The translations under genes were made by a program, and so were the position numbers. The notes under the pieces are model-generated. The model did not search any database. It worked only from the letters and a program-made list of their open reading frames with translations, and was not told where the DNA came from. Below are positions 187-29,943 of a DNA stretch of 43,025 nucleotides, in pieces (positions within the stretch are counted from its first letter, which is position 1; every line of letters starts with the position of its first letter). This DNA is from a virus: positions 1-43,025 of the IMG/VR virus record IMGVR_UViG_3300002138_000051; one strand, written 5' to 3'.

Positions 187-1226
187 AGATTTGGAGCAAT
201 ATTGAATTAGATGTAGATTTTGTATATCCTTATGATATTGTACCATTAGAAGAGTGTGATGTGATAATGTTATGTGACATAGTGTCAGAACGGGTATATC
301 TACCTAGACGCATTTACACATCTGAATTTGAAGATGTAACAAGTCCTGACGAGCCTAATAATATGGAAAGAGCTCTTTCTGAAATATTAGAAGTTACAGA
401 ATATTTAAAACTTCATAAGCCCATAGTAGCTTTTGGAAGGTATGGTTTCATTTTAGCGCTTCTTATGGGAGGCGCTATAATTGATTCAAGTGCTGCTGCT
501 AATTCTTTAAGATATGTATTACATCCTTCGGGAGCCTCTACCAGAGTTGAATCAGGCAGATTAAATTTAATAATGCCTAGTTCTTTATTTATATCATTAG
601 CTATAACTTCTAGTAGAGATATTGCTCATAATTATAGTTCTAATGGAACTAGTGTTACATTGCCGGGAATCGATCCCGTTGAGATTGGTTACATTCCGAG
701 ATGTAATAGTATATTTTTTGAAGCTCCTTATAGCGCATGGCAATATAACGTACTTCATAATTATATTACTACTCTTACAAGTAAAGATTTTAATGGATTT
801 GCAGATGTTCAAAGATTTTCAAATGTTTCAGTATGCCCAGAAGTTCTTAGAAAAAAGAAAACTATAGCACCTCCCATTAGTACAGAGCGTCATTATAACC
901 CATATGGTATAATTAAACCTTCTAAAAGAAAGGAAGTGCCGACTGGCAGTATTGTTACATCGCTGGGTGCGACTAAGTCTACGTCAGTGAACATAAGTGA
1001 AGCACTAAAAGATGTATTTAATAAACCACAGGCGGAAAAAAAACCAGAAGTAAAATTTGATCCTTCTCAATACTTTGTCCATAAAGTATCTGTCGATGAT
1101 TTTAATGTTCATGTAGCTAAAACACCTGACATCGATAATGCTGAGTCGCATGAAGAACAGATTGCAAATTCTGAAGCCGCAATTGCGCATGAACAACAAC
1201 GGCAACAACAACCACCACCATTTTAA
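159..1226 (+). CDS. Hypothetical protein in the amidoligase module, possibly a degenerate class I amidotransferase fold
   Basis: This is a 355-residue protein of unknown function. Its start overlaps the preceding gene, as is usual in this phage. Residues about 88-150 contain I-V-A-F-G-R-Y-G-F followed by L-M-G-G, then a His-Pro and a Met-Pro-Ser-Ser-Leu segment. The order loosely recalls the nucleophile-elbow region of class I glutamine amidotransferases (G-x-C-x-G, then G-G, then His). There is no cysteine at the expected place, so it would be inactive as a glutaminase. The C-terminal third is low complexity and ends in Gln-rich and Pro-rich sequence. Its position between an ATP-grasp-like gene and a class II amidotransferase suggests a role in the same pathway. 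The fold suggestion is weak and rests on motif spacing only. Confidence 0.6.
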   Translation: MERDTTSRIKIWSNIELDVDFVYPYDIVPLEECDVIMLCDIVSERVYLPRRIYTSEFEDVTSPDEPNNMERALSEILEVTEYLKLHKPIVAFGRYGFILALLMGGAIIDSSAAANSLRYVLHPSGASTRVESGRLNLIMPSSLFISLAITSSRDIAHNYSSNGTSVTLPGIDPVEIGYIPRCNSIFFEAPYSAWQYNVLHNYITTLTSKDFNGFADVQRFSNVSVCPEVLRKKKTIAPPISTERHYNPYGIIKPSKRKEVPTGSIVTSLGATKSTSVNISEALKDVFNKPQAEKKPEVKFDPSQYFVHKVSVDDFNVHVAKTPDIDNAESHEEQIANSEAAIAHEQQRQQQPPPF

Positions 1227-1233
1227 ACAACAA

Positions 1234-3345
1234 ATGTTAACAATTATAATAGTATTATTAATTTTAATACTCACACCACAACGATCGGGTATCCTTGGCT
1301 GCGGCCTTATAGGATTTGCCCCAAATAAAAAAAGAGAGGCAAATCTCACATGGATTAAACTCATCATGGTTTATAATACTTCAAGAGGAACTGATGCTTG
1401 CGGTATATATATTAATGAAGAGTCAATAAAAGGAGTTAAGACAGAGTCTGACGCTAGAACATTTTTAGCAATGCATCCGATTGAATATGTTCCCGGATGC
1501 AAAAATAAATTAGTTATTGCTCATACTAGAAAGTCCTTATTAGGTGCAGCTTTTGAAGAAAATGCACATCCTTACACTTTTACAAACGACGAAGGTCGTT
1601 CTATTACATTAGCTCATAATGGAACTATAAACAACATTTATGATTTAGCTAGAGAATCTGGCGTAGATTGTACTGGATTATTAGTAGACTCTCAAAAATT
1701 AGCTAAAATAATTCTTGAAAAAGGTTATTCCGTTTTAAATGATTATAAAGGAACAGCTGCATTATTATTTAGCTTTTCAGATGATCCTAATGCATTATAT
1801 GTATTTAAAGGAGCATCACTAGATAAAGTTACTGATAAAGAGGTAAGTACTGAAAGACCTTTATTTTATATAGAGACTATGGAAGGATGTTATTTTTCTT
1901 CTATGTGGGAACCCTTAGATACTTTAACAGATCAGGTTACTGATACGTTCAGCGTACCTAATAACAAAGTATTTAGAGTTATTAATAATGAGTTTACAGA
2001 ATTATTTACTGCTGAAAGAGATTCTAATAATATATATGTACCAGCTGTTAGAACTGGACCTACGTACCACGGGAGTGCTAGCCACTATCCTAATACTAGT
2101 AATAGTTCTGAATATGTTGGTGAACCTAGAACCGAACCTGCTACTAATCTAAAATCTTTTACAGAAGTCTCAACCACTATGGGGCACAATTTTGGAAAAG
2201 ACATGTTTAGAGCCGGCGCTGTTCATTATTTAGGTGGTAGATATTATGCTAGAATAATGGGCTTAGTTGGACAATCAGCAAAAGATGTAATGTATCCAGC
2301 GTGTCCTGACTCAGCTGCGTATTTAATGAGAGGTTATCACTCTATCATGTATTGTAAGAAAGAGCCTAAAGTGTTCATTCCGCAAATAACAAATGCTGCA
2401 AATGCTAATATAAATAGCGAAACTGCAGGATACAGTAAGCTTTATTTTTATGAAGGTGTTTTAATTTCTCCTAAGAAAGTAGAACATTTTATTAGAAAAG
2501 TAGAAAAAAGATTAGATGATATGAATAATCCTTTTGAGAAGTTAAGACAACTGTCTTCCTTTTCAGAAACTCCTATCACATATCTACATTCTGAAACTTC
2601 TAAAATAAAAAATAATGAAATTAAGTTTTTCATAGCTGGTAAACCTCTTAAATCTAGATGCGAATATCGCCCAATACTTTCTCACAGAAAATATTCATTT
2701 GATGATAAAGGTAACTTGATAGCAATTTCTACCTCTATCAAAACTGATACTATTTTTAAAGATTTAGCATTAAATACTTCTTCTGCAGAAGCATCTGTTC
2801 CAGCGCTAATTAATCCAGCAACTGTTATTAAAAATGCAGCACAAACTCAAGCTACTGCGCAGTTAGCAAAGTTAAGAGCTAATAGTGCATTAACTGTTAA
2901 AAGATTTGAGATGCTGTTAGATGTTGCTTATTACAGACTTAAAGGTTATTCACAAGCTGAAGAATCAACAAGAATACTTGCTGAGGAAATAGATGGAGCT
3001 GCTGATACTACTTATTACAATTCTGAAAATAATGCTATAAGTTTTACAGGTAAAGATATACTGATAAGAGCTATAATGCTATCATTATTAGAAATATTAG
3101 GAACAGATAATCAGATTTCTATTGACCATTGCGAAGCAAGAGCTGCCGCTTTATTTAATACTAGCAACTCTTCAAGTCAGGGATTAATTCATGTAATGAA
3201 GCATTCAGGATATGGTGATTTTGCAAGTTTCGTAGATGAAGCTATTTTAGAACTACATCATGAAGCCGTTTCTAAATTCAAAAAAACTCCTATAACTTTA
3301 GAACAAGATGACTACTCAGAATTCGCCGAAGTCGGCAGTTACTAA
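1234..3345 (+). CDS. Class II glutamine amidotransferase (Ntn-hydrolase) fused to a large unknown C-terminal region
   Basis: The N-terminal domain carries the GATase II signatures. These are C-G-L-I-G-F with the candidate nucleophile Cys23, R-G-T-D-A-C-G (about 51-57), I-A-H-T-R then N-A-H-P, and A-H-N-G-T-I-N-N. Such domains release ammonia from glutamine for a partner synthetase or ligase; here the obvious partner is the amidoligase that follows. About 450 residues after the domain match nothing I recognise. Start: ATG 1234 lies just after the upstream stop at 1226. It places a 22-residue, very hydrophobic leader before the cysteine, and no start codon sits directly before Cys. The family needs a free N-terminal Cys, so the leader must be removed or the true start is non-standard. 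The 3' end overlaps the amidoligase start by 38 bases. Confidence 0.85.
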   Translation: MLTIIIVLLILILTPQRSGILGCGLIGFAPNKKREANLTWIKLIMVYNTSRGTDACGIYINEESIKGVKTESDARTFLAMHPIEYVPGCKNKLVIAHTRKSLLGAAFEENAHPYTFTNDEGRSITLAHNGTINNIYDLARESGVDCTGLLVDSQKLAKIILEKGYSVLNDYKGTAALLFSFSDDPNALYVFKGASLDKVTDKEVSTERPLFYIETMEGCYFSSMWEPLDTLTDQVTDTFSVPNNKVFRVINNEFTELFTAERDSNNIYVPAVRTGPTYHGSASHYPNTSNSSEYVGEPRTEPATNLKSFTEVSTTMGHNFGKDMFRAGAVHYLGGRYYARIMGLVGQSAKDVMYPACPDSAAYLMRGYHSIMYCKKEPKVFIPQITNAANANINSETAGYSKLYFYEGVLISPKKVEHFIRKVEKRLDDMNNPFEKLRQLSSFSETPITYLHSETSKIKNNEIKFFIAGKPLKSRCEYRPILSHRKYSFDDKGNLIAISTSIKTDTIFKDLALNTSSAEASVPALINPATVIKNAAQTQATAQLAKLRANSALTVKRFEMLLDVAYYRLKGYSQAEESTRILAEEIDGAADTTYYNSENNAISFTGKDILIRAIMLSLLEILGTDNQISIDHCEARAAALFNTSNSSSQGLIHVMKHSGYGDFASFVDEAILELHHEAVSKFKKTPITLEQDDYSEFAEVGSY

Positions 3346-4636
3346 ACAGGTAACATACGCAGAAAATCCTAATCTTGGATATAAGAAGGTGTCTCTTGCT
3401 GACGGAAGTACTGAATATAAAAAAAACTGTAAGCTTATAAAAGATAATTATTACAGAATTTCAGATCAGTGTATTCTAGTAGACAAGAGATGGTACATGG
3501 CTAATGACCATCGCATATTTTATGATTGCGAAATTAAAGAATATGCTTTGATATCTTTTAAAGGTGTTAATGAAGGTGTTGTTGGCACATCTGAATCTGG
3601 AGAGTTAATCATTGGAAAGTTTTCATCAAACCCATTATATAACTGCAAGTTAGTAACCAGCAAATACGTTAATGGAATAGCTTGTATATCATATGAAATT
3701 CCTAAAGCTTTAGGGTTTGTTGAACATATTAATAAAGGGCTATGGTCCGATATGAAAAATGTTGAACAACTTGATATACGAAAATTAGCTAATGCAAATA
3801 TACCACTTAGCGTTCAGGGTAGACTGTCTGCAGCTTATAATGTAAAATTAGATATGACAACTAAAAAAGCATTTGATTTCTCTAATAATGCTTATAATGC
3901 TGAAGAATCTAAAGAGTTTGATAAAAAGATTTCTGAATATAACAAATTTAAAACTCCTTTAACTAAAGATGTTAAAAGAGCTGCTAGATTGTTAGGAGAT
4001 CTTACTTTCGGATGTGAAATAGAAACAAAGTTAGGTAACATTCCCGGATATCTTCAGTCGCAAATGGGGATTATCATCTGTAAAGATGGTTCTATTGGGT
4101 ATTCTCCGGAGTTTGTTACTGTTCCGTATAAAGGAGCTAAAGGGCTACAATCCCTTAAGAATCTATTTACAGAGCTTAACAGACGTTGTACAACCGATGT
4201 AACATGCAGCTTACATTATCACGTAGGATCTATTAGAAAAGATAGAGAATTTCTGATAGCTATCTATAAGTTATATTGTAATATTCAAGCTGAATTACAT
4301 GCTATGTTGCCGATGTATAAAACTAATCCTGAAGGAATTAAGAAAAAGAATTACTGCAACTTTCTTCCATCTAGCTTAATCGGAAGTATGCTTACCCAAC
4401 CTTGCAATAAGGAATTATATAAATCTAACATTAACCAAACATTTGCTAAAATCCATAACTGGGTACTAGGCGGCGTTTCTAGTGATAAATTATATAATAG
4501 AAAAACTAAAACTCATCCTAGAGGTAGACAAAAATGGTATTTTGAAAGTAGATATTTCAGTATGAACATTATAAATATGTTCGTATCTGATCGTCAAACT
4601 GTAGAGTTTAGGGCTGAATGTAACCCCCTTGCATAG
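3308..4636 (+). CDS. Type 2 amidoligase, exon 1 (gene split by a group I intron)
   Basis: The protein shows the hallmarks of amidoligase 2 (glutamine-synthetase-like COOH-NH2 ligase): F-G-C-E-I-E (about 235-240), P-E-F-V-T-V-P-Y, C-S-L-H-Y-H-V-G, R-Y-F-S-M-N, and T-V-E-F-R ending at Arg435. The family makes amide bonds from a carboxylate and an amine with ATP. The frame hits TAG 4634-4636, followed at once by TAA. Only about seven residues after Arg435 are encoded before this stop, and they do not fit the family. The missing C-terminal part (H-H-A-V-L-N-P-T-K onward) resumes at about 5525. Coding sequence of exon 1 therefore probably ends near 4614, and 4615-4636 is intron read as protein. 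A spliced product would be about 537 residues. Confidence 0.85.
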   Translation: MTTQNSPKSAVTKQVTYAENPNLGYKKVSLADGSTEYKKNCKLIKDNYYRISDQCILVDKRWYMANDHRIFYDCEIKEYALISFKGVNEGVVGTSESGELIIGKFSSNPLYNCKLVTSKYVNGIACISYEIPKALGFVEHINKGLWSDMKNVEQLDIRKLANANIPLSVQGRLSAAYNVKLDMTTKKAFDFSNNAYNAEESKEFDKKISEYNKFKTPLTKDVKRAARLLGDLTFGCEIETKLGNIPGYLQSQMGIIICKDGSIGYSPEFVTVPYKGAKGLQSLKNLFTELNRRCTTDVTCSLHYHVGSIRKDREFLIAIYKLYCNIQAELHAMLPMYKTNPEGIKKKNYCNFLPSSLIGSMLTQPCNKELYKSNINQTFAKIHNWVLGGVSSDKLYNRKTKTHPRGRQKWYFESRYFSMNIINMFVSDRQTVEFRAECNPLA

Positions 4637-4692: not shown

Positions 4693-4722
4693 TTGACAAA
4701 ACTTTTGATTATAGTATCTTTG
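4693..4722 (+). promoter_or_regulatory. Bacteroidetes-type promoter for the intron HNH gene
   Basis: TTG at 4693-4695, 19 bases, then TATCTTTG at 4715-4722. This matches the -33/-7 (TTG...TAnnTTTG) promoter of Bacteroidetes. The ATG of the HNH gene follows 7 bases after the -7 box. The promoter lies inside the intron, so the endonuclease can be expressed independently of the host gene. Confidence 0.85.
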
Positions 4723-6674: not shown

Positions 6675-6836
6675 ATGAAATTAATCACACTATTATTATT
6701 TTTTGTAGTTCTTAGTAAAGAACCTTCACAAAAATACTGCAAATATCAAGCATTGACTGCTGATAGCACTACTTATACTATATATAGCTTAGACTTCAGT
6801 AAAGAGAAAGGAGATACGTTTTGGATAAATCCGTAA
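6675..6836 (+). CDS. Small secreted or membrane protein, 53 residues (hypothetical)
   Basis: The frame ATG 6675 to TAA 6834-6836 begins M-K-L-I-T-L-L-L-F-F-V-V-L-S. That is a short basic start followed by a hydrophobic stretch, as in a signal peptide or membrane anchor. The remaining 39 residues are polar with one Cys. No promoter is visible, and the terminator lies immediately upstream, so expression would depend on read-through. Its end overlaps a relic of a HAD gene. It could be a real small envelope protein or a chance frame. Confidence 0.45.
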   Translation: MKLITLLLFFVVLSKEPSQKYCKYQALTADSTTYTIYSLDFSKEKGDTFWINP

Positions 6837-12016: not shown

Positions 12017-12254
12017 CATTATAAAAGAATTTGGAAGCTATGCCGCTTCTAAACCTTACAAACCTGTACCAATATCACATATGGTAAATGATAGATTTAG
12101 AGTATTAGCTTTACCTAAACATAAGGGAGTGATTACATTTAAGCCTTCATGTAAGTATATAGCTGTACTTGACGGCTCTCCTGAGAGTTATATTATTATG
12201 AAGATATCGCTAAAGACTCTTCGTACAATTTACAATAAAGGAAGTAATGGATAA
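11991..12254 (+). CDS. Hypothetical protein, 87 residues
   Basis: A small basic protein, probably mixed alpha/beta; I do not recognise the family. It overlaps the gene before by 26 bases and the patatin-like gene after by 8, so it is part of the same transcript. Confidence 0.65.
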   Translation: MKQIINANNIIKEFGSYAASKPYKPVPISHMVNDRFRVLALPKHKGVITFKPSCKYIAVLDGSPESYIIMKISLKTLRTIYNKGSNG

Positions 12255-13161
12255 TAAAAACATAAGCGCGTTGAGTATATCCGGCGGTGCAATGGGCATC
12301 GTCGGACAATTCGGCGTAACTGAACAAATCTTTAACCGAATTAAACCAGAATATTTTGCTGGTATTAGTGCGGGAAGTATCTTAGCATTAGCTATGCCTA
12401 CAGTTGATTGGAATTCTACATGTGAGTGTAGAACTTTTAATCTAAAAAGGGCTTTGCTAGGAATTAGATCTTGTGATATTTGGAGTGCGAATCCTCTAAA
12501 TAAAAAAGGAGGATTCTCAATAATAGCTGTAGCAAGTATTTTATCAGGTAAACCCGGCTTAGGAGATATGAGTAATTTAGGTGAGTATCTATCTAAACAT
12601 GTTCCTAAGAATAAATTTATTATGAGGCTGAAAGATAACCCAAGATATAAAGGTATATTTGCAGGTTCTGTTGATTTTAATACTGGTAGTAGACAATATG
12701 TCAATCTTAAAGATTGTTCATATAATGATGCTCTTGATTGGGTTATTGCATCATCTTCTATTCCAGTATTTGCAGAACCGGTTGAAAAGGATTCAAGCTT
12801 CTATTTTGATGGAGGTGTTAGAAATCATAATCCCGGACATTGGTTAACAGAAAACTATGGTAAAGATTTTAATAGATTAACTAGTATATATTCCAGACCT
12901 GAAAATTATGATATATCTAATAAGGATTGGAAGCCTGATAATGTATTAAAAGTACTTGAAAGAAGTATTGAAATCATGCAAATGGAGATTTCAAAACGGG
13001 ATCAAAAAGAAGAGATTCGATTATGCTCAGATCTAGGTATCGATTTAAGTCAGATATTCTTACCTAAGATGCTACAAGGATATTATGATACTGACACTAC
13101 TAGATTAAGAGCATTATACGAAGCTGGTAAAAAAATAGGAAAGGAGTTTAATGAAAGATAA
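12247..13161 (+). CDS. Patatin-like phospholipase
   Basis: This 304-residue protein has the three patatin landmarks. These are a Gly-rich oxyanion segment S-I-S-G-G-A-M-G (10-17), the nucleophile elbow G-I-S-A-G (Ser41), and D-G-G (188-190) giving the catalytic Asp. The usual G-G-G-x-R/K-G lacks its basic residue here. Patatin-like enzymes hydrolyse acyl esters of lipids. No signal peptide is present, so it acts in the cytoplasm or at the inner face of the membrane. In a phage it could alter host membranes, interfere with defence or assist lysis; nothing in the sequence decides this. It overlaps the genes on both sides. Confidence 0.9.
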   Translation: MDNKNISALSISGGAMGIVGQFGVTEQIFNRIKPEYFAGISAGSILALAMPTVDWNSTCECRTFNLKRALLGIRSCDIWSANPLNKKGGFSIIAVASILSGKPGLGDMSNLGEYLSKHVPKNKFIMRLKDNPRYKGIFAGSVDFNTGSRQYVNLKDCSYNDALDWVIASSSIPVFAEPVEKDSSFYFDGGVRNHNPGHWLTENYGKDFNRLTSIYSRPENYDISNKDWKPDNVLKVLERSIEIMQMEISKRDQKEEIRLCSDLGIDLSQIFLPKMLQGYYDTDTTRLRALYEAGKKIGKEFNER

Positions 13162-13570: not shown

Positions 13571-13968
13571 CAGTTTATAAAACGAGAGTATTCGATAAAA
13601 AAGGCAAAGTTATTAAAACTCATATTTCAGAAAGGTTTTCTTCAAAAGGGGAAGATCTTATTGAAGAATGGTTAAAACGAAAGAAGTTTAACTACAGAAA
13701 AGAAAAAAGATTTTCATGGTTATTAGGTGTCAACAATGGAGAAATGAGACTTGATTTTTATATTCCGTCGTTGAGAATAGCTATTGAATTTGATGGGCCT
13801 CATCATGAAACATCTGACTATCAAAAAGCAAACGATGCTGTTAAAAACAAACTACTTAAAAAGAAAAACATACGTCTTATACGTATTCACTATTCAAGAA
13901 TGCATTTGATATCAGCGATTTTAAATCACTCCATAATCAAAAAAACAAAAATAAAAAAATATGGCTAA
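13567..13968 (+). CDS. PD-(D/E)XK-fold nuclease, Vsr/DUF559-like
   Basis: In this 133-residue protein, M-R-L-D-F-Y-I-P (60-67) followed by I-A-I-E-F-D-G-P-H-H (71-80) gives Asp63, Glu74 and Asp76. This is the E-x-D-G-x-x-H form seen in Vsr-like and DUF559 endonucleases. A Glu on the first helix (29 or 34) completes the site. The C-terminal I-R-L-I-R-I strand is also typical. It is probably an endonuclease for DNA repair, packaging or host DNA breakdown. It overlaps both neighbours, so it is in the patatin-MazG transcript. Confidence 0.8.
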   Translation: MTVYKTRVFDKKGKVIKTHISERFSSKGEDLIEEWLKRKKFNYRKEKRFSWLLGVNNGEMRLDFYIPSLRIAIEFDGPHHETSDYQKANDAVKNKLLKKKNIRLIRIHYSRMHLISAILNHSIIKKTKIKKYG

Positions 13969-14446
13969 TTGGTGTACAAACACGGTAACCTTTTCCGGGC
14001 CTGACGAAAATAAAGTACGTCAGGTATTTAAAAGGCTTGAGAAGAAGTGTAATAATACTAATTTAGGACAGACTTTAAAGTGGTTTAAAGATGATAGATA
14101 TCTATTTGATATAAATACAGATGATACTATTTCTTTTGAAACAAAGTGGGGTCCAGCCGAACAAACTATATTGGAAATTTTTAATAGATACGACGTCAAT
14201 GGAGAGTATTATTATGAAGAACCTGGTATGAGTATTTACGGAGCCATCTTTAAAATAGATAATGAAGTATATAGTGTAAATTTAGACGATGAGGATTTAG
14301 ACCCTTTAGATTATAATGACGAATTAGATTGTTATACTGTAAGCGGCATACCTATTGAATCTGATTCAGACTATTTATTCGGAGCGATAGACAATAAAAT
14401 GCAACGGCTTATTAGTAATCGTAAAACAGAAAAAGGGCTCACTTAG
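13961..14446 (+). CDS. Api92-like ferredoxin-fold protein
   Basis: The start M-A-N-W-C-T-N-T-V-T-F-S-G is the hallmark of the Api92/YubB-like family with a ferredoxin-like domain. F-E-T-K-W-G-P-A follows, and then Y-Y-Y-E-E-P-G-M-S-I-Y-G. The family is widespread in phages and plasmids; its biochemical role is unknown. It is one of only three genes here that end in TAG. The stop lies in the loop-to-stem junction of the following terminator. Confidence 0.85.
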   Translation: MANWCTNTVTFSGPDENKVRQVFKRLEKKCNNTNLGQTLKWFKDDRYLFDINTDDTISFETKWGPAEQTILEIFNRYDVNGEYYYEEPGMSIYGAIFKIDNEVYSVNLDDEDLDPLDYNDELDCYTVSGIPIESDSDYLFGAIDNKMQRLISNRKTEKGLT

Positions 14447-14770: not shown

Positions 14771-14801
14771 CAAAGATACAATATTTATTTTAAAAAAGCA
14801 A
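14771..14801 (-). promoter_or_regulatory. Bacteroidetes-type promoter abutting the 93-residue gene
   Basis: Read on the minus strand: TTG (14801-14799), 20 bases, TATCTTTG (14778-14771), TAGT, ATG at 14766. The last bases, TATCTTTGTAGTATG, are identical to those at the 17024 gene. Confidence 0.87.
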
Positions 14802-14855: not shown

Positions 14856-14996
14856 TTATATATTCCAACCTAACATTTTTAGGCGGTGTTTAAACAATTC
14901 TATATCTATTGTATAGATATGCCCATTAAGAGTTACTTTAACATCTTCTTTGACATTTCTAACAATATCTTCCATTTGTTTTTTACTATAAGTCAT
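14856..14996 (-). CDS. Small hypothetical protein, 46 residues
   Basis: ATG 14996 to TAA 14858-14856 encodes a small protein with V-K-V-T-L-N-G-H-I-Y-T-I-D (about 19-31), which looks like a beta-hairpin, between two short helices. Its start overlaps the stop of the gene upstream by 11 bases, the usual packing here, and this supports it as real. No family is recognised. Confidence 0.6.
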   Translation of the reverse strand: MTYSKKQMEDIVRNVKEDVKVTLNGHIYTIDIELFKHRLKMLGWNI

Positions 14997-15219
14997 TGTT
15001 GTACGATTTAGGTTTAAAGAATAACTGTTCTAAATCTCCGTTATTTTCTATATTTCCTCCAGTACCAGTTAAAAAAACTGTACCTTTTAATTTAAGATCT
15101 AACTTAGGCATACAAGCATCCCACATTTCTTTAAGTTGCTCAGGAGTAAATCTCCTTTTAAGTTCATCTAATTCATCGTATGGTTCAAACCATAACAGAG
15201 GTCTTTTTCCGTTTATCAT
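14986..15219 (-). CDS. Hypothetical protein, 77 residues
   Basis: A small protein with R-R-F-T-P-E-Q-L-K-E-M-W-D-A-C (about 22-36), a helical segment, and a Gly-rich turn later. It ends with TAG at 14988-14986, followed directly by TAA, so amber read-through would add one residue only. It overlaps the gene on each side by a few bases. Confidence 0.65.
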   Translation of the reverse strand: MINGKRPLLWFEPYDELDELKRRFTPEQLKEMWDACMPKLDLKLKGTVFLTGTGGNIENNGDLEQLFFKPKSYNNDL

Positions 15220-15458
15220 TGTATTGTTACACTAACGCCATCAGTTAATTTACATTCTGCAAGAGTTTCAAACTGTTCAACTTTATCTTCATCAATAGCT
15301 AATTTAATATCACAGTGATGGTAAGTATTTTGCTTCCTTGTATAGTCTTTAATACCTAATCCCCATGTAACTAATATTCTAGCATCTGTCATTATAGTAG
15401 CATACATAAATGCTGACATAGCTTTAGTAGACATTCTTATTTTAGCTATTTTAATCAT
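15216..15458 (-). CDS. Hypothetical protein, 80 residues
   Basis: A small basic protein with R-M-S-T-K-A-M-S-A-F-M-Y near the start; I do not recognise it. Its ATG is only two bases downstream of the mature 3' end of the tRNA gene, so tRNA 3' processing would create the 5' end of this mRNA. Its stop overlaps the start of the next gene. Confidence 0.65.
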   Translation of the reverse strand: MIKIAKIRMSTKAMSAFMYATIMTDARILVTWGLGIKDYTRKQNTYHHCDIKLAIDEDKVEQFETLAECKLTDGVSVTIQ

Positions 15459-15460
15459 TG

Positions 15461-15530
15461 AGGACTGTGAGGGAGTCGAACCCTATCAACTTGGTTTAGA
15501 ATCAAGTGCTTACCCTGTAAGTCACGGTCC
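15461..15530 (-). tRNA. tRNA with probable anticodon CUA (amber suppressor), degenerate stems
   Basis: On the minus strand a cloverleaf can be drawn. The acceptor is GGACCGT with ACAGTCC, with one C-A mismatch. The D arm is CTTA/TAAG with a short five-base loop. The anticodon arm is CTTGA-TTCTAAA-CCAAG, four pairs plus an A-C mismatch. The T arm is AGGG-TTCGACT-CCCT. In the 7-base loop TTCTAAA, T33 is followed by CTA (plus-strand 15499-15497), which reads UAG. An arginine TCT reading would need a 9-base loop or would break the stem. CCA is not encoded. The mismatches and short D loop mean it could be a decaying gene. Confidence 0.72.
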
Positions 15531-15709: not shown

Positions 15710-16819
15710 TTAGAAGATGTGACTTAGTCTTGCTACCTGTCCTTGTACCGGGTGATGTATAAATGCCTCTACAGCTTTAGGAGAATGTTGATATCCGTTT
15801 CTGTGATGCCAGCTATCTGTACCCGATGGACTTCTTAATGATTCTACACATACTGAGCCGTAGTCTCTAGATTTTTTATGATGGATATGATGTGTATAAA
15901 AGTATCTATGTCTGCATACTCCCCAGTTTAAAGGAGATTCTTGAGCCATCAATAACGGTAAGTCTGTCTCTTTAGCCCCATCACCATGAGTAGTACCTAT
16001 TAGGTTTTCTCCATAGGTAAAATACTTTCTATGAGCAATGCTAGTATTAAATTCAATATTCTTATTGTCTTTAAACCATGTTTTAATACTATCAGCTAGA
16101 AAGAATCCATTTATATAATCATGGTTAGATGGATCATACTGAACATATACATCAGCTACAGTTAATAACATTTCAATAACTTCTACATATAATTGTTTAG
16201 CTATTAAGAAGTTATCATACCACATACCGTCAGTATCTTGTGGAGTGTTAGAAGTAGTTACTCGTTTAGGACTATCTATATGTAATATATCATTTCCTAT
16301 AATGAATAGTATTTTATTAATATTAAAGCCTGACGCTTTATCTAAGAGCCCTTTAACACCTTCCTTTACTCTCTGTACAGCTACTTGATTATCATAGCCC
16401 TCACCCACTTCAAATGCGCTTGCAAGCTTACCTATATGAATATCAGCTGGGTCTATTACTAACAAATGAGGATCTTTGATCTTTTCTCGTTTTAAAGTCG
16501 GATACTGTGGAGAATACTCTCTCATTTCATCTATTAGGGCATCTTTTAAATCTGTTAAATTTACTTTACTATTTAACACATTCATACTGAATGATTTAGA
16601 TTTATGCCAGTATGATTTAACTGAGTCGAAATCTACACCAGTTTCTTCGCAATGCTGTAATAGTGCACTATGCTTTTGTTGTTTAAACAATTTCTTAGCT
16701 TCAAATACTTCATCTAAGGTTACATTGTTTCTCTGAGCTATTCTTTTGTTTGATAGCCTGTAAACAGCTTCTCTTGTAGAGAATAGCTTAATTAGTTTTT
16801 CAATATTATTATGATTCAT
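15710..16819 (-). CDS. Calcineurin-like metallophosphoesterase with an N-terminal HTH-like region
   Basis: This 369-residue protein has the metal-binding motifs of the family in order: D-I-H (126-128), G-N-D (175-177), N-H-D (232-234), His278 in T-T-H-G-D, and H-I-H (311-313). Such enzymes hydrolyse phosphodiesters or phosphomonoesters; several phage members act on DNA. Residues about 21-48 (R-L-S-N-K-R-I-A-Q-R-N-N-V) look like a helix-turn-helix, suggesting DNA binding. It overlaps the small gene upstream by 11 bases and shares its promoter. Confidence 0.88.
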   Translation of the reverse strand: MNHNNIEKLIKLFSTREAVYRLSNKRIAQRNNVTLDEVFEAKKLFKQQKHSALLQHCEETGVDFDSVKSYWHKSKSFSMNVLNSKVNLTDLKDALIDEMREYSPQYPTLKREKIKDPHLLVIDPADIHIGKLASAFEVGEGYDNQVAVQRVKEGVKGLLDKASGFNINKILFIIGNDILHIDSPKRVTTSNTPQDTDGMWYDNFLIAKQLYVEVIEMLLTVADVYVQYDPSNHDYINGFFLADSIKTWFKDNKNIEFNTSIAHRKYFTYGENLIGTTHGDGAKETDLPLLMAQESPLNWGVCRHRYFYTHHIHHKKSRDYGSVCVESLRSPSGTDSWHHRNGYQHSPKAVEAFIHHPVQGQVARLSHIF

Positions 16820-17024
16820 CTGTTACTCTTTCAGGGATTACTAATGATAAACAGTCTTCTGTAACTGTCGCAAAACAATCTTTTTCCACTCTAACTTTAT
16901 AGAGTAGAAAATCATCACCATCTAATATATGTATATTAGTAGCGCTTTCTATAGAAACTATCTTTCCACTAAGTTCAAAGAACATAATGTTAACATAGTC
17001 GCCTACTTTGTAATTATTCTCCAT
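16809..17024 (-). CDS. Small SH3-like beta protein, 71 residues (hypothetical)
   Basis: M-E-N-N-Y-K-V-G-D-Y-V-N-I begins a short beta-rich protein whose opening (K-V-G-D-x-V) is common in SH3-like barrels. The start at 17024 is fixed by the promoter, whose -7 box ends five bases upstream. The stop overlaps the start of the phosphoesterase. In-frame codons continue upstream without a stop to the TAG of the 44-residue gene at 17079. Confidence 0.75.
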   Translation of the reverse strand: MENNYKVGDYVNIMFFELSGKIVSIESATNIHILDGDDFLLYKVRVEKDCFATVTEDCLSLVIPERVTDES

Positions 17025-17028
17025 ACTA

Positions 17029-17058
17029 CAAAGATACGACAATTTTTGAAAAAAACAA
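17029..17058 (-). promoter_or_regulatory. Bacteroidetes-type promoter abutting the 71-residue gene
   Basis: Minus strand: TTG (17058-17056), 19 bases, TATCTTTG (17036-17029), TAGT, ATG at 17024. It drives the phosphoesterase and tRNA group. Confidence 0.87.
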
Positions 17059-17078: not shown

Positions 17079-17213
17079 CTAGTTTTGACCTCTAGATCGC
17101 TTAATGTAATTCTTACTGCCTTTATTTTTAGACATTTTTGACTTTGCATGGATTCCTCTACGCTTTTTCTTAGATTTACTTCTAAAGAATGAAGTGTTTA
17201 TTAATTTTGCCAT
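17079..17213 (-). CDS. Small very basic protein, 44 residues
   Basis: ATG 17213 to TAG 17081-17079. It is rich in Lys, Arg and Ser (S-K-S-K-K-K-R-R-G-I-H-A-K-S-K) and lacks acidic residues, so it probably binds nucleic acid or is structural. Similar small basic proteins occur in tailed phages, but I cannot name a family. It follows the tail gene at 17232 by 18 bases. TAG is the only stop between it and the next gene, which is in the same frame. Confidence 0.7.
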   Translation of the reverse strand: MAKLINTSFFRSKSKKKRRGIHAKSKMSKNKGSKNYIKRSRGQN

Positions 17214-23380: not shown

Positions 23381-23806
23381 TTATGTTATTTCTATTGCTG
23401 TTAAATTATTACTACCGTCATATGTAAATGTTTTACTATACATAAAACTATCCGATATTCTTTCTACCTCTAATAATGTTAAATTGTCTCCAGTATATGT
23501 AAAATCTACTTGAAATAATTTTACTGTCATGGCATTATCAGTATATATATTTATTTGTGATAAAGAATCTCCTGAATAAGAAAAAGCTTTATATCCTGTT
23601 AGTTGACTAAGTTTAAGATGCAATCTTATATCATCTACTGCTGCGGCTCCTCCTGCTGCTTTAAACGTCCCGTCATCCGCTAAAAACAAAGTACCTGATC
23701 CTGTACCACCTGTACCTAAATCTTCAGCAGTAATGTTACCCCATTCAGCTGAAGGTTGAATCTGATACTTTGGAGCTATATAAGGTAATTTAAAAAATAA
23801 ACTCAT
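23381..23806 (-). CDS. Tail-associated structural protein, 141 residues (hypothetical)
   Basis: The start W-G-N-I-T-A-E-D-L-G-T-G-G-T-G-S-G resembles linker sequences of phage tail-fibre tips. The second half is repeated Y-S-G-D-S-L-S-Q-I-N and Y-D-G-S-N-N-L-T-A-I strands of RHS/YD-like character. Its ATG overlaps the stop of the spanin-like gene. No catalytic motif is present. Confidence 0.7.
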   Translation of the reverse strand: MSLFFKLPYIAPKYQIQPSAEWGNITAEDLGTGGTGSGTLFLADDGTFKAAGGAAAVDDIRLHLKLSQLTGYKAFSYSGDSLSQINIYTDNAMTVKLFQVDFTYTGDNLTLLEVERISDSFMYSKTFTYDGSNNLTAIEIT

Positions 23807-24435
23807 TATAATTTAATTGAAAAAGGATAATATAAAATAGAAAATCCAAAAGAGGCTCTATTTACAAATGGAGTATATTGAAAAGAAGGGCCAATGATTA
23901 GTTTCGGTTGTTTAACTTTCACTTCTCTTGATATTATTGCAGTAGTCTTAAACATCGGGTTACTGTTTTTTACATCAACAAAATACTTCTTTCTTCCTAA
24001 AAACCAAGTACGTTTCCAATAATCTACAATTTGGATTGTATCTTTTATTTGTATAAAAAGTGTATCGTTCTTTAATGACAGATATATAAAACTATCTCTA
24101 TATTGATATGAAGTGTCGAGAATTATTTTTGCTTCTGCGTTATTTACAATACGACTATATGATCTGATTTGTTTTTCTTTTAATTCTAGTTGATTAGATA
24201 ACGATTTAATATCATCTTGAAGATATTCCTTTTCTGTGATTATTTTCGAAGCAACAGCATGTTCATTGCCGTACTTGTCTTTATAATGGGTTACTGAATC
24301 ACTTAAGTTAGAAATAAGCTCTTTCTGGATTTTAATAGATTTTAACCTTGCTTGCGAAGTGCAAGTTTCGGTTAACACTACCCAGAAAATAAAAATTCCA
24401 AGTATGGTATATATGAATGCTTTTTCGTGTTTCAT
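23806..24435 (-). CDS. Spanin-like lysis protein with an N-terminal membrane anchor and coiled coil
   Basis: This 209-residue protein has a membrane segment at about 8-23 (Y-T-I-L-G-I-F-I-F-W-V-V-L). A long coiled coil follows (about 28-105), then a beta-rich C-terminal part with I-I-G-P-S-F-Q-Y-T-P-F-V and a hydrophobic last strand. An inner-membrane anchor plus a periplasmic coiled coil is the layout of i-spanins, which link the two membranes in the last lysis step. The C-terminal strands could sit in the outer membrane, making it a one-protein spanin. Its position next to amidase and holin supports this. No lipobox-bearing partner was found. Confidence 0.68.
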   Translation of the reverse strand: MKHEKAFIYTILGIFIFWVVLTETCTSQARLKSIKIQKELISNLSDSVTHYKDKYGNEHAVASKIITEKEYLQDDIKSLSNQLELKEKQIRSYSRIVNNAEAKIILDTSYQYRDSFIYLSLKNDTLFIQIKDTIQIVDYWKRTWFLGRKKYFVDVKNSNPMFKTTAIISREVKVKQPKLIIGPSFQYTPFVNRASFGFSILYYPFSIKL

Positions 24436-29224: not shown

Positions 29225-29413
29225 TTATTGTGGTTGAATTGTTGTTATTTTTGTTGCGTCTTCTGGAACTTGGAATACCATAGTTTCAGGTTTATTAGTA
29301 GAAACTATACTATATTGTGAATATGAATTATTCTTTACGAATGATTGTAATTCATAAAATGTAGCTTGTTCTACTTTAATTTCTTTTTTTTCTGTATCTA
29401 CTGTTAATATCAT
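29225..29413 (-). CDS. Hypothetical protein, 62 residues
   Basis: A small protein with V-D-T-E-K-K-E-I-K-V and Y-E-L-Q-S-F-V (about 20-26), beta then helix. No family is recognised. ATG 29413 overlaps the TGA of the upstream gene by four bases, so translation is probably coupled. Confidence 0.7.
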   Translation of the reverse strand: MILTVDTEKKEIKVEQATFYELQSFVKNNSYSQYSIVSTNKPETMVFQVPEDATKITTIQPQ

Positions 29414-29943
29414 ATTTTTGTAGATTGAGTTATTGCGTTTGCCATTAATGCAAATAGGTCTACTGGTTGAGATTTAGCTATTAGCCTATATGCTTCAAAT
29501 TCAGGTAGATACCCAACTCCTGCGGGAAGACCTGTAGGATTGTTACTTGCGTGGTATGCTCCTAAATTTGTTATAGTTTCACAATCTGCTGGTAGTAAAT
29601 AATCTACACCTTCTGTTAATCCGCTAATGTCAGTTACTTGTAAAGTACTTAAGCTGATATATGAATTGTTTGTAGCTAAGATAGGGATCTCAACTGGAAA
29701 TATGTTTTTGATACCTGAATCAACATATCCGTTTAAAGGGTTTCCATTAGCGTCAAGTACATAGAGTACTATAGAAATGTCAACAACCTGAGCTTCAGCT
29801 AATATGTTAAGATTTTTAACAATAGCTGCTCTATTTAATCCTGTTGTAGGATCGGCTGTTATTGTTGGTGATTCTATTACTTGAAAGTAATTTTTTTGAT
29901 TGGCTAACTCTTGTGCTGTAGTTAGTTGTAATAAGTTTTTCAT
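29410..29943 (-). CDS. Hypothetical structural protein, 177 residues
   Basis: An acidic, mostly beta protein with L-Y-V-L-D-A-N-G-N-P-L-N-G-Y-V (about 61-75), similar to Ig-like strands, and a helical C-terminus. Its position among fibre genes and its overlaps on both sides suggest a tail component. I cannot identify it further. Confidence 0.7.
   Translation of the reverse strand: MKNLLQLTTAQELANQKNYFQVIESPTITADPTTGLNRAAIVKNLNILAEAQVVDISIVLYVLDANGNPLNGYVDSGIKNIFPVEIPILATNNSYISLSTLQVTDISGLTEGVDYLLPADCETITNLGAYHASNNPTGLPAGVGYLPEFEAYRLIAKSQPVDLFALMANAITQSTKI

Follow-up and report, generated by a model that had tools for sequence, protein, structure and literature searches.

A candidate amber-suppressor tRNA in a phage record whose genes follow the standard code

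Within a linear virus record of 43,025 bases, analyzed here over its whole length (the window) and probably representing a genome fragment, there is a single tRNA gene, and it carries the anticodon CUA. We favor, with a probability of about one half, the reading that it is a phage-encoded tRNA of the amber-suppressor type in a phage of standard code, which would read UAG weakly rather than reassign it. Nothing in the window indicates that UAG serves as more than a stop. A CUA tRNA without recoding is a condition already published for crAss-like phages.

The tRNA gene and the features that frame it on the same strand are as follows.

15460..15530, minus strand: tRNA gene with anticodon CUA (ARAGORN), with an Rfam RF00005 match over 15461-15530
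15710..16819, minus strand: gene for a DNA repair exonuclease, lying upstream of the tRNA (PHROG 704, 2e-69)
15216..15458, minus strand: 80-aa ORF, with its ATG directly behind the 3' end of the tRNA
17029..17058, minus strand: Bacteroidota-type promoter TTG-N-TATCTTTG, from a pattern scan

The earlier note had placed a tRNA with anticodon CUA and the anticodon loop TTCTAAA at 15461-15530; ARAGORN recovered both, with the anticodon CTA at 15460-15530, under the label 'tRNA-Pyl', which is merely the program's name for this anticodon. The sequence reads, element by element, GGACCGT GA CTTA CAGGG TAAG C ACTTGA TTCTAAA CCAAGT TGA TAGGG TTCGACT CCCTC ACAGTCC T. The acceptor stem (GGACCGT/ACAGTCC) contains a C5-A68 mismatch and is followed by the discriminator U73, with no encoded CCA. 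The D arm (CTTA/TAAG) closes a loop of 5 bases, the anticodon arm (ACTTG-A-TTCTAAA-C-CAAGT) has a mismatched A31-C39, and the T arm (TAGGG-TTCGACT-CCCTC) has a mismatched T49-C65. U8 is missing; U33, A37, the T loop TTCGA and the paired D and T arms are retained, and the 7-base loop TTCTAAA joins CUA with U33 and A37, as in amber suppressors. U73 together with G1-C72 would presumably suit an acceptor such as that of tRNA-Cys or tRNA-Gly. Pyrrolysine tRNAs are marked by a 6-bp anticodon stem, a 3-base variable loop and one base between the acceptor and D stems, and are accompanied by pylS and pyl genes. In one register, the window tRNA shows a 6-bp anticodon stem, mismatched at one position, and a variable loop of 3 bases, but the D stem is then preceded by two bases or else by an 8-bp acceptor; no pyl genes were found among the window proteins scanned. 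Against the full-length RF00005 model it reaches 25.5 bits, short of the gathering score of 29; this is the lowest value among the CUA tRNAs listed, six others from phages reaching 47.9-61.5 bits. The minimum-energy fold of the 71-nt tRNA contains the cloverleaf arms, at an ordinary folding energy (z -0.61); a longer transcript around it folds otherwise, without the cloverleaf. An exact search of viral contigs with its anticodon arm gave no match, and a distant DNA search in phages gave partial matches only, with nothing close. In a comparison aimed at the parent tRNA, the best identities were 0.69-0.73 to many isoacceptors, from which no single ancestor emerges; a search of two Bacteroidota MAGs for the parent yielded nothing useful.

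The tRNA occupies a gap between same-strand genes, and the pattern scan detected no TTG-TAnnTTTG promoter directly upstream of it. Thus, it is probably cut from a longer transcript starting near 17058. The promoter at 17029..17058 could drive, as a putative operon, the gene at 16809-17042, the exonuclease, the tRNA and the small genes. The exonuclease is 73% and 72% identical to its relatives in the loci L002 and L003, respectively; the 80-aa ORF has no family match, and a homologue search with it was empty. Across the window, promoters of the form TTG-N-TAnnTTTG lie at 4693, 5835, 6289, 6884 and 9054 on the plus strand and at 14801 and 17058 on the minus strand. They end a few bases ahead of an ATG, a spacing that suggests leaderless or nearly leaderless transcripts. 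These promoters, the exonuclease relatives (found in Flavobacterium phages and Bacteroidota MAG contigs) and an amidoligase matching those of Cellulophaga phage phi14:2 and crAss-like phage cr108_1 point to a Bacteroidota host. At 1138-4636, a glutamine-amidotransferase-domain protein adjoins the amidoligase-like protein, and a patatin-like phospholipase gene with a relative in L002 is located in a plus-strand region at 12247-13161. No Crassvirales markers (TerL, MCP or portal) were recognized in the window.

The best long relative is the 91,958-base record IMGVR_UViG_3300032235_000776 (G004), whose length suggests a full genome of about 90 kb for the window phage. It shares with the window the exonuclease (72% identity), the genes at 29410-29943 (55%) and 23806-24435 (42%), a holin-like gene and others, tail and lysis genes being among those in common, and several shared genes keep a similar order. 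A two-sequence profile search with 29410-29943 found only G004. The TerL of G004 is 26-28% identical to crAss-like TerL. This relative encodes 22 tRNAs (L237 4466-8121), with 18 of the 20 amino acids covered and one CUA tRNA. The latter, at 6687-6759, scores 47.9 bits in Rfam, has an encoded CCA and follows directly on a promoter-like stretch of Bacteroidota type, TTGACA...TATATTTG. The CUA tRNAs of the window and of G004 agree in their GGAC...GTCC acceptor ends, in U73 and in the AGGGTTCGAYTCCCT T arm; however, at 70% identity we do not claim common descent, since other phage tRNAs reach 73%. TAG is significantly rare among the stops of G004 (1 of 60, p = 0.0004), and no credible in-frame TAG was found in this record, its head, tail and lysis genes being covered.

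To place the A31-C39 mismatch, phage CTA tRNAs were collected by two pattern scans blind to positions 31 and 39, giving at least 131 distinct tRNAs, and compared with 1017 phage tRNAs of other kinds drawn from the same loci. Among the matches listed, the 31-39 pair is non-standard in 56 of 131 distinct CTA tRNAs versus 41 of 1017 others, and in 26 of the 30 with the loop TTCTAAA, for which A-C, as in the window tRNA, is the commonest mismatch. Clustering these matches at 75% identity leaves the mismatch in 19 of 60 CTA clusters versus 34 of 670 others (p = 2e-9), in counts for which loops were placed by one program and the sequences are related. Given how common the mismatch is in phage CUA tRNAs, A31-C39 is no sign of decay. 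The yeast sup70-65 tRNA, which suppresses UAG, has the same A-C mismatch at 31-39, but as a eukaryotic mutant tRNA-Gln(CUG) whose anticodon CUG reads UAG by wobble it is a mechanistic parallel only (PMC3664417); in the part of the literature that was searched, no phage counterpart was found. The excess may be a new result. We tentatively suggest that phage CUA tRNAs, including the window tRNA, might form a class that has repeatedly and independently lost the 31-39 pair (as A-C, C-A or C-C), mostly in unrecoded phages, and that the loss would tune the strength or the target of stop reading. A link between a paired 31-39 and recoding, suspected at first, was rejected, because tRNA arrays, in which those loci are rich, lower coding density; in 20-kb regions off the tRNAs, 0 of 20 records with the mismatch and 1 of 20 with the pair were recoded.

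The alternative that survives best is a decaying gene, in which a once-working tRNA of CUA or another specificity would have become inactive through the loss of U8 and of stem pairs. It would explain why the Rfam score is the lowest of those listed (25.5 versus 47.9-61.5 bits), why the acceptor and T stems hold mismatches and U8 and CCA are missing, and why the gene stands isolated whereas G004 keeps an array of 22. It fits less well with the intact T loop, anticodon loop and D arm, with a 31-39 mismatch typical of phage CUA tRNAs, or with the persistence of odd phage tRNAs, such as a CTA tRNA under the Rfam cut-off in L133 that has an identical copy in L203. The earlier note had taken the mismatches to leave decay open, which holds for 5-68, 49-65 and the missing U8 and fails for A31-C39. 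Decay is thus a real possibility, and we rank a weak active suppressor somewhat ahead of it.

Less likely by far is a counter-defence tRNA, which would resist or bypass host defences that target translation, or whose UAG readthrough would disturb host defence proteins, the decoding of UAG in phage genes being irrelevant. Against it, an ordinary host is not known to have a tRNA of anticodon CUA that could be replaced, and the window contains just one tRNA. In its favor, the tRNAs of G004 cover most amino acids, phage tRNAs are known to counter tRNA-cutting defences (PMC10264068, PMC11555353), and a counter-defence role has already been proposed for the CTA tRNAs of unrecoded crAss-like phages (PMC12386605).

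The window genes tile under the standard code and end, by gene list, in 33-34 TAA, 7 TGA and 3-4 TAG. At least four genes (about 4 of 44) have a TAG end, at 4636, 14446, 14986 and 17079.

3308..4636, plus strand: amidoligase gene, 442 aa, terminated by a TAG that another stop follows immediately
13961..14446, plus strand: DUF1281_C gene, 161 aa, ending in TAG
14986..15219, minus strand: 77-aa ORF, ending in TAG with an immediate TAA
17079..17213, minus strand: gene of a 44-aa basic protein, ending in TAG

Three of these ends (14446, 14986 and 17079) had been read in the earlier note as the only ones, all close to the tRNA; they are real, but the amidoligase TAG at 4636 makes a fourth and lies 10.8 kb away. 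The immediate TAA that it saw behind one TAG is present at 14986. Its description of a phage with few UAG stops amounts in the window to a trend at most, with 2 TAG ends among 33 genes of at least 90 aa, where low-GC relatives would lead one to expect about 16% (p = 0.08, short of significance). A second stop directly follows two of the four TAGs (4636 and 14986) versus 6 of 41 TAA or TGA ends; in a larger sample of CTA-tRNA phages, backup stops behind TAG were not enriched. No in-frame TAG was found in any coding frame of the window, including the genes of 2859, 1048, 846 and 660 aa and those for tail and lysis. Reading TAG as sense lifts coding density only from 0.878 to 0.896 and yields no sensible gene joining. 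The one in-frame TAG junction is at 17079, where readthrough would enter 16809-17042; the promoter motif TATCTTTG sits between the two genes, and the 44-aa protein ends near the end of its G004 relative (51 aa, TAA).

Genuine recoding of UAG as an amino acid in the late phase of infection (code 15), which the earlier note had raised from the example of some gut phages, is thus not supported, and we consider it very improbable. The CUA tRNA and the low use of TAG would suit it, and the remaining genes, if the window is part of a genome as is probable, lie outside view; but the 43 kb at hand contain neither an in-frame TAG nor a clear density gain, and none was found in G004 either, for which the genes of head, tail and lysis were covered. 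What the window combines is a CTA tRNA with genes in the standard code, as in unrecoded carriers of such tRNAs.

Such carriers prevail in the sample surveyed. Judged by 20-kb stretches at a distance from the tRNA, the standard code applies in 39 of 40 sampled phage records with a CUA tRNA; a call of Sup-CTA should therefore not by itself be read as recoding, in agreement with published remarks (PMC7886860, PMC12386605). The lone carrier that looks TAG-recoded is L401 (G090, 50001-70000), with a coding density rising from 0.65 to 0.92, and no stops were found inside the terminase in 19 CTA-carrier records with a recognizable one. At GC below 0.38, TAG ends 11 of 282 genes in CTA carriers versus 91 of 628 in exonuclease relatives, a depletion that we do not press because it is weak when other phage loci with tRNAs serve as the reference (p = 0.048). 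Among viral contigs with a CUA tRNA, one also has a permuted tmRNA (L140 5011-5293, Rfam 70.5 bits) and another a GOLLD RNA overlapping a tRNA match (L200 1448-1910).

Published systems resemble the window in part. Zeta group clade 8 crAss-like phages (ctE7s22) have a CTA tRNA, rare TAG and no suppression (PMC12386605). Like the window, they combine a CUA tRNA with no in-frame TAG, and some of their rare TAG stops are backed by another stop, as are some in the window; they differ in belonging to the Zeta crAss-like phages found in the gut virome, whereas the window is probably part of another kind of Bacteroidota phage, and its tRNA is far weaker. 'Suppressor pre-emergence' has been described in crAss-like phages, in which suppressor tRNAs and reassignment are imperfectly paired (PMC7886860). 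The window likewise has a suppressor tRNA without reassignment; however, the published example is a tRNA-Gln changed into a TAA suppressor in one genome, whereas no parent tRNA stands out here. Code-15 phages with a Sup-CTA tRNA share the anticodon CUA with the window but have in-frame TAG in many genes, of which the window has none (PMC11210395, PMC9523058, PMC10607447). Finally, a chance cloverleaf in non-coding DNA is hardly credible despite the sub-threshold Rfam score and the ordinary folding energy, because ARAGORN gave 3 matches, one with CTA, in an order-2 Markov simulation of the window (1000 copies, 43 Mb) and 0 on a separate 1.7 Mb of simulated sequence, and because the tRNA, set between same-strand genes, has all its arms and a conserved T loop.

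We thus return to a weak UAG-reading tRNA in a standard-code phage and propose a putative course of events. Initially, the tRNA would be transcribed inside the minus-strand cluster starting near 17058, and host enzymes would trim it out of the transcript. Afterwards, the host would add CCA and some host synthetase would charge it, and the charged tRNA would read UAG at low efficiency. As UAG is retained by the phage just as an uncommon stop, the likely effect would be readthrough of UAG stops at a low level, chiefly those of the host, or else the tRNA would be a preadapted suppressor not yet exploited. Counting against this proposal are the score of 25.5 bits, the C5-A68 and T49-C65 mismatches, the missing U8, CCA and own promoter, the misfold of the longer transcript, and backup stops that are no more frequent than expected behind TAG in CTA carriers.

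In summary, this study contributes a phage with apparent distant ties to crAss-like phages to the question of why many phages retain a tRNA that reads a stop codon although UAG does not serve them as sense. If the 31-39 rule holds, suppressors that phages have weakened or retuned could be recognized by a simple mark in the sequence and put directly to the test at the bench.
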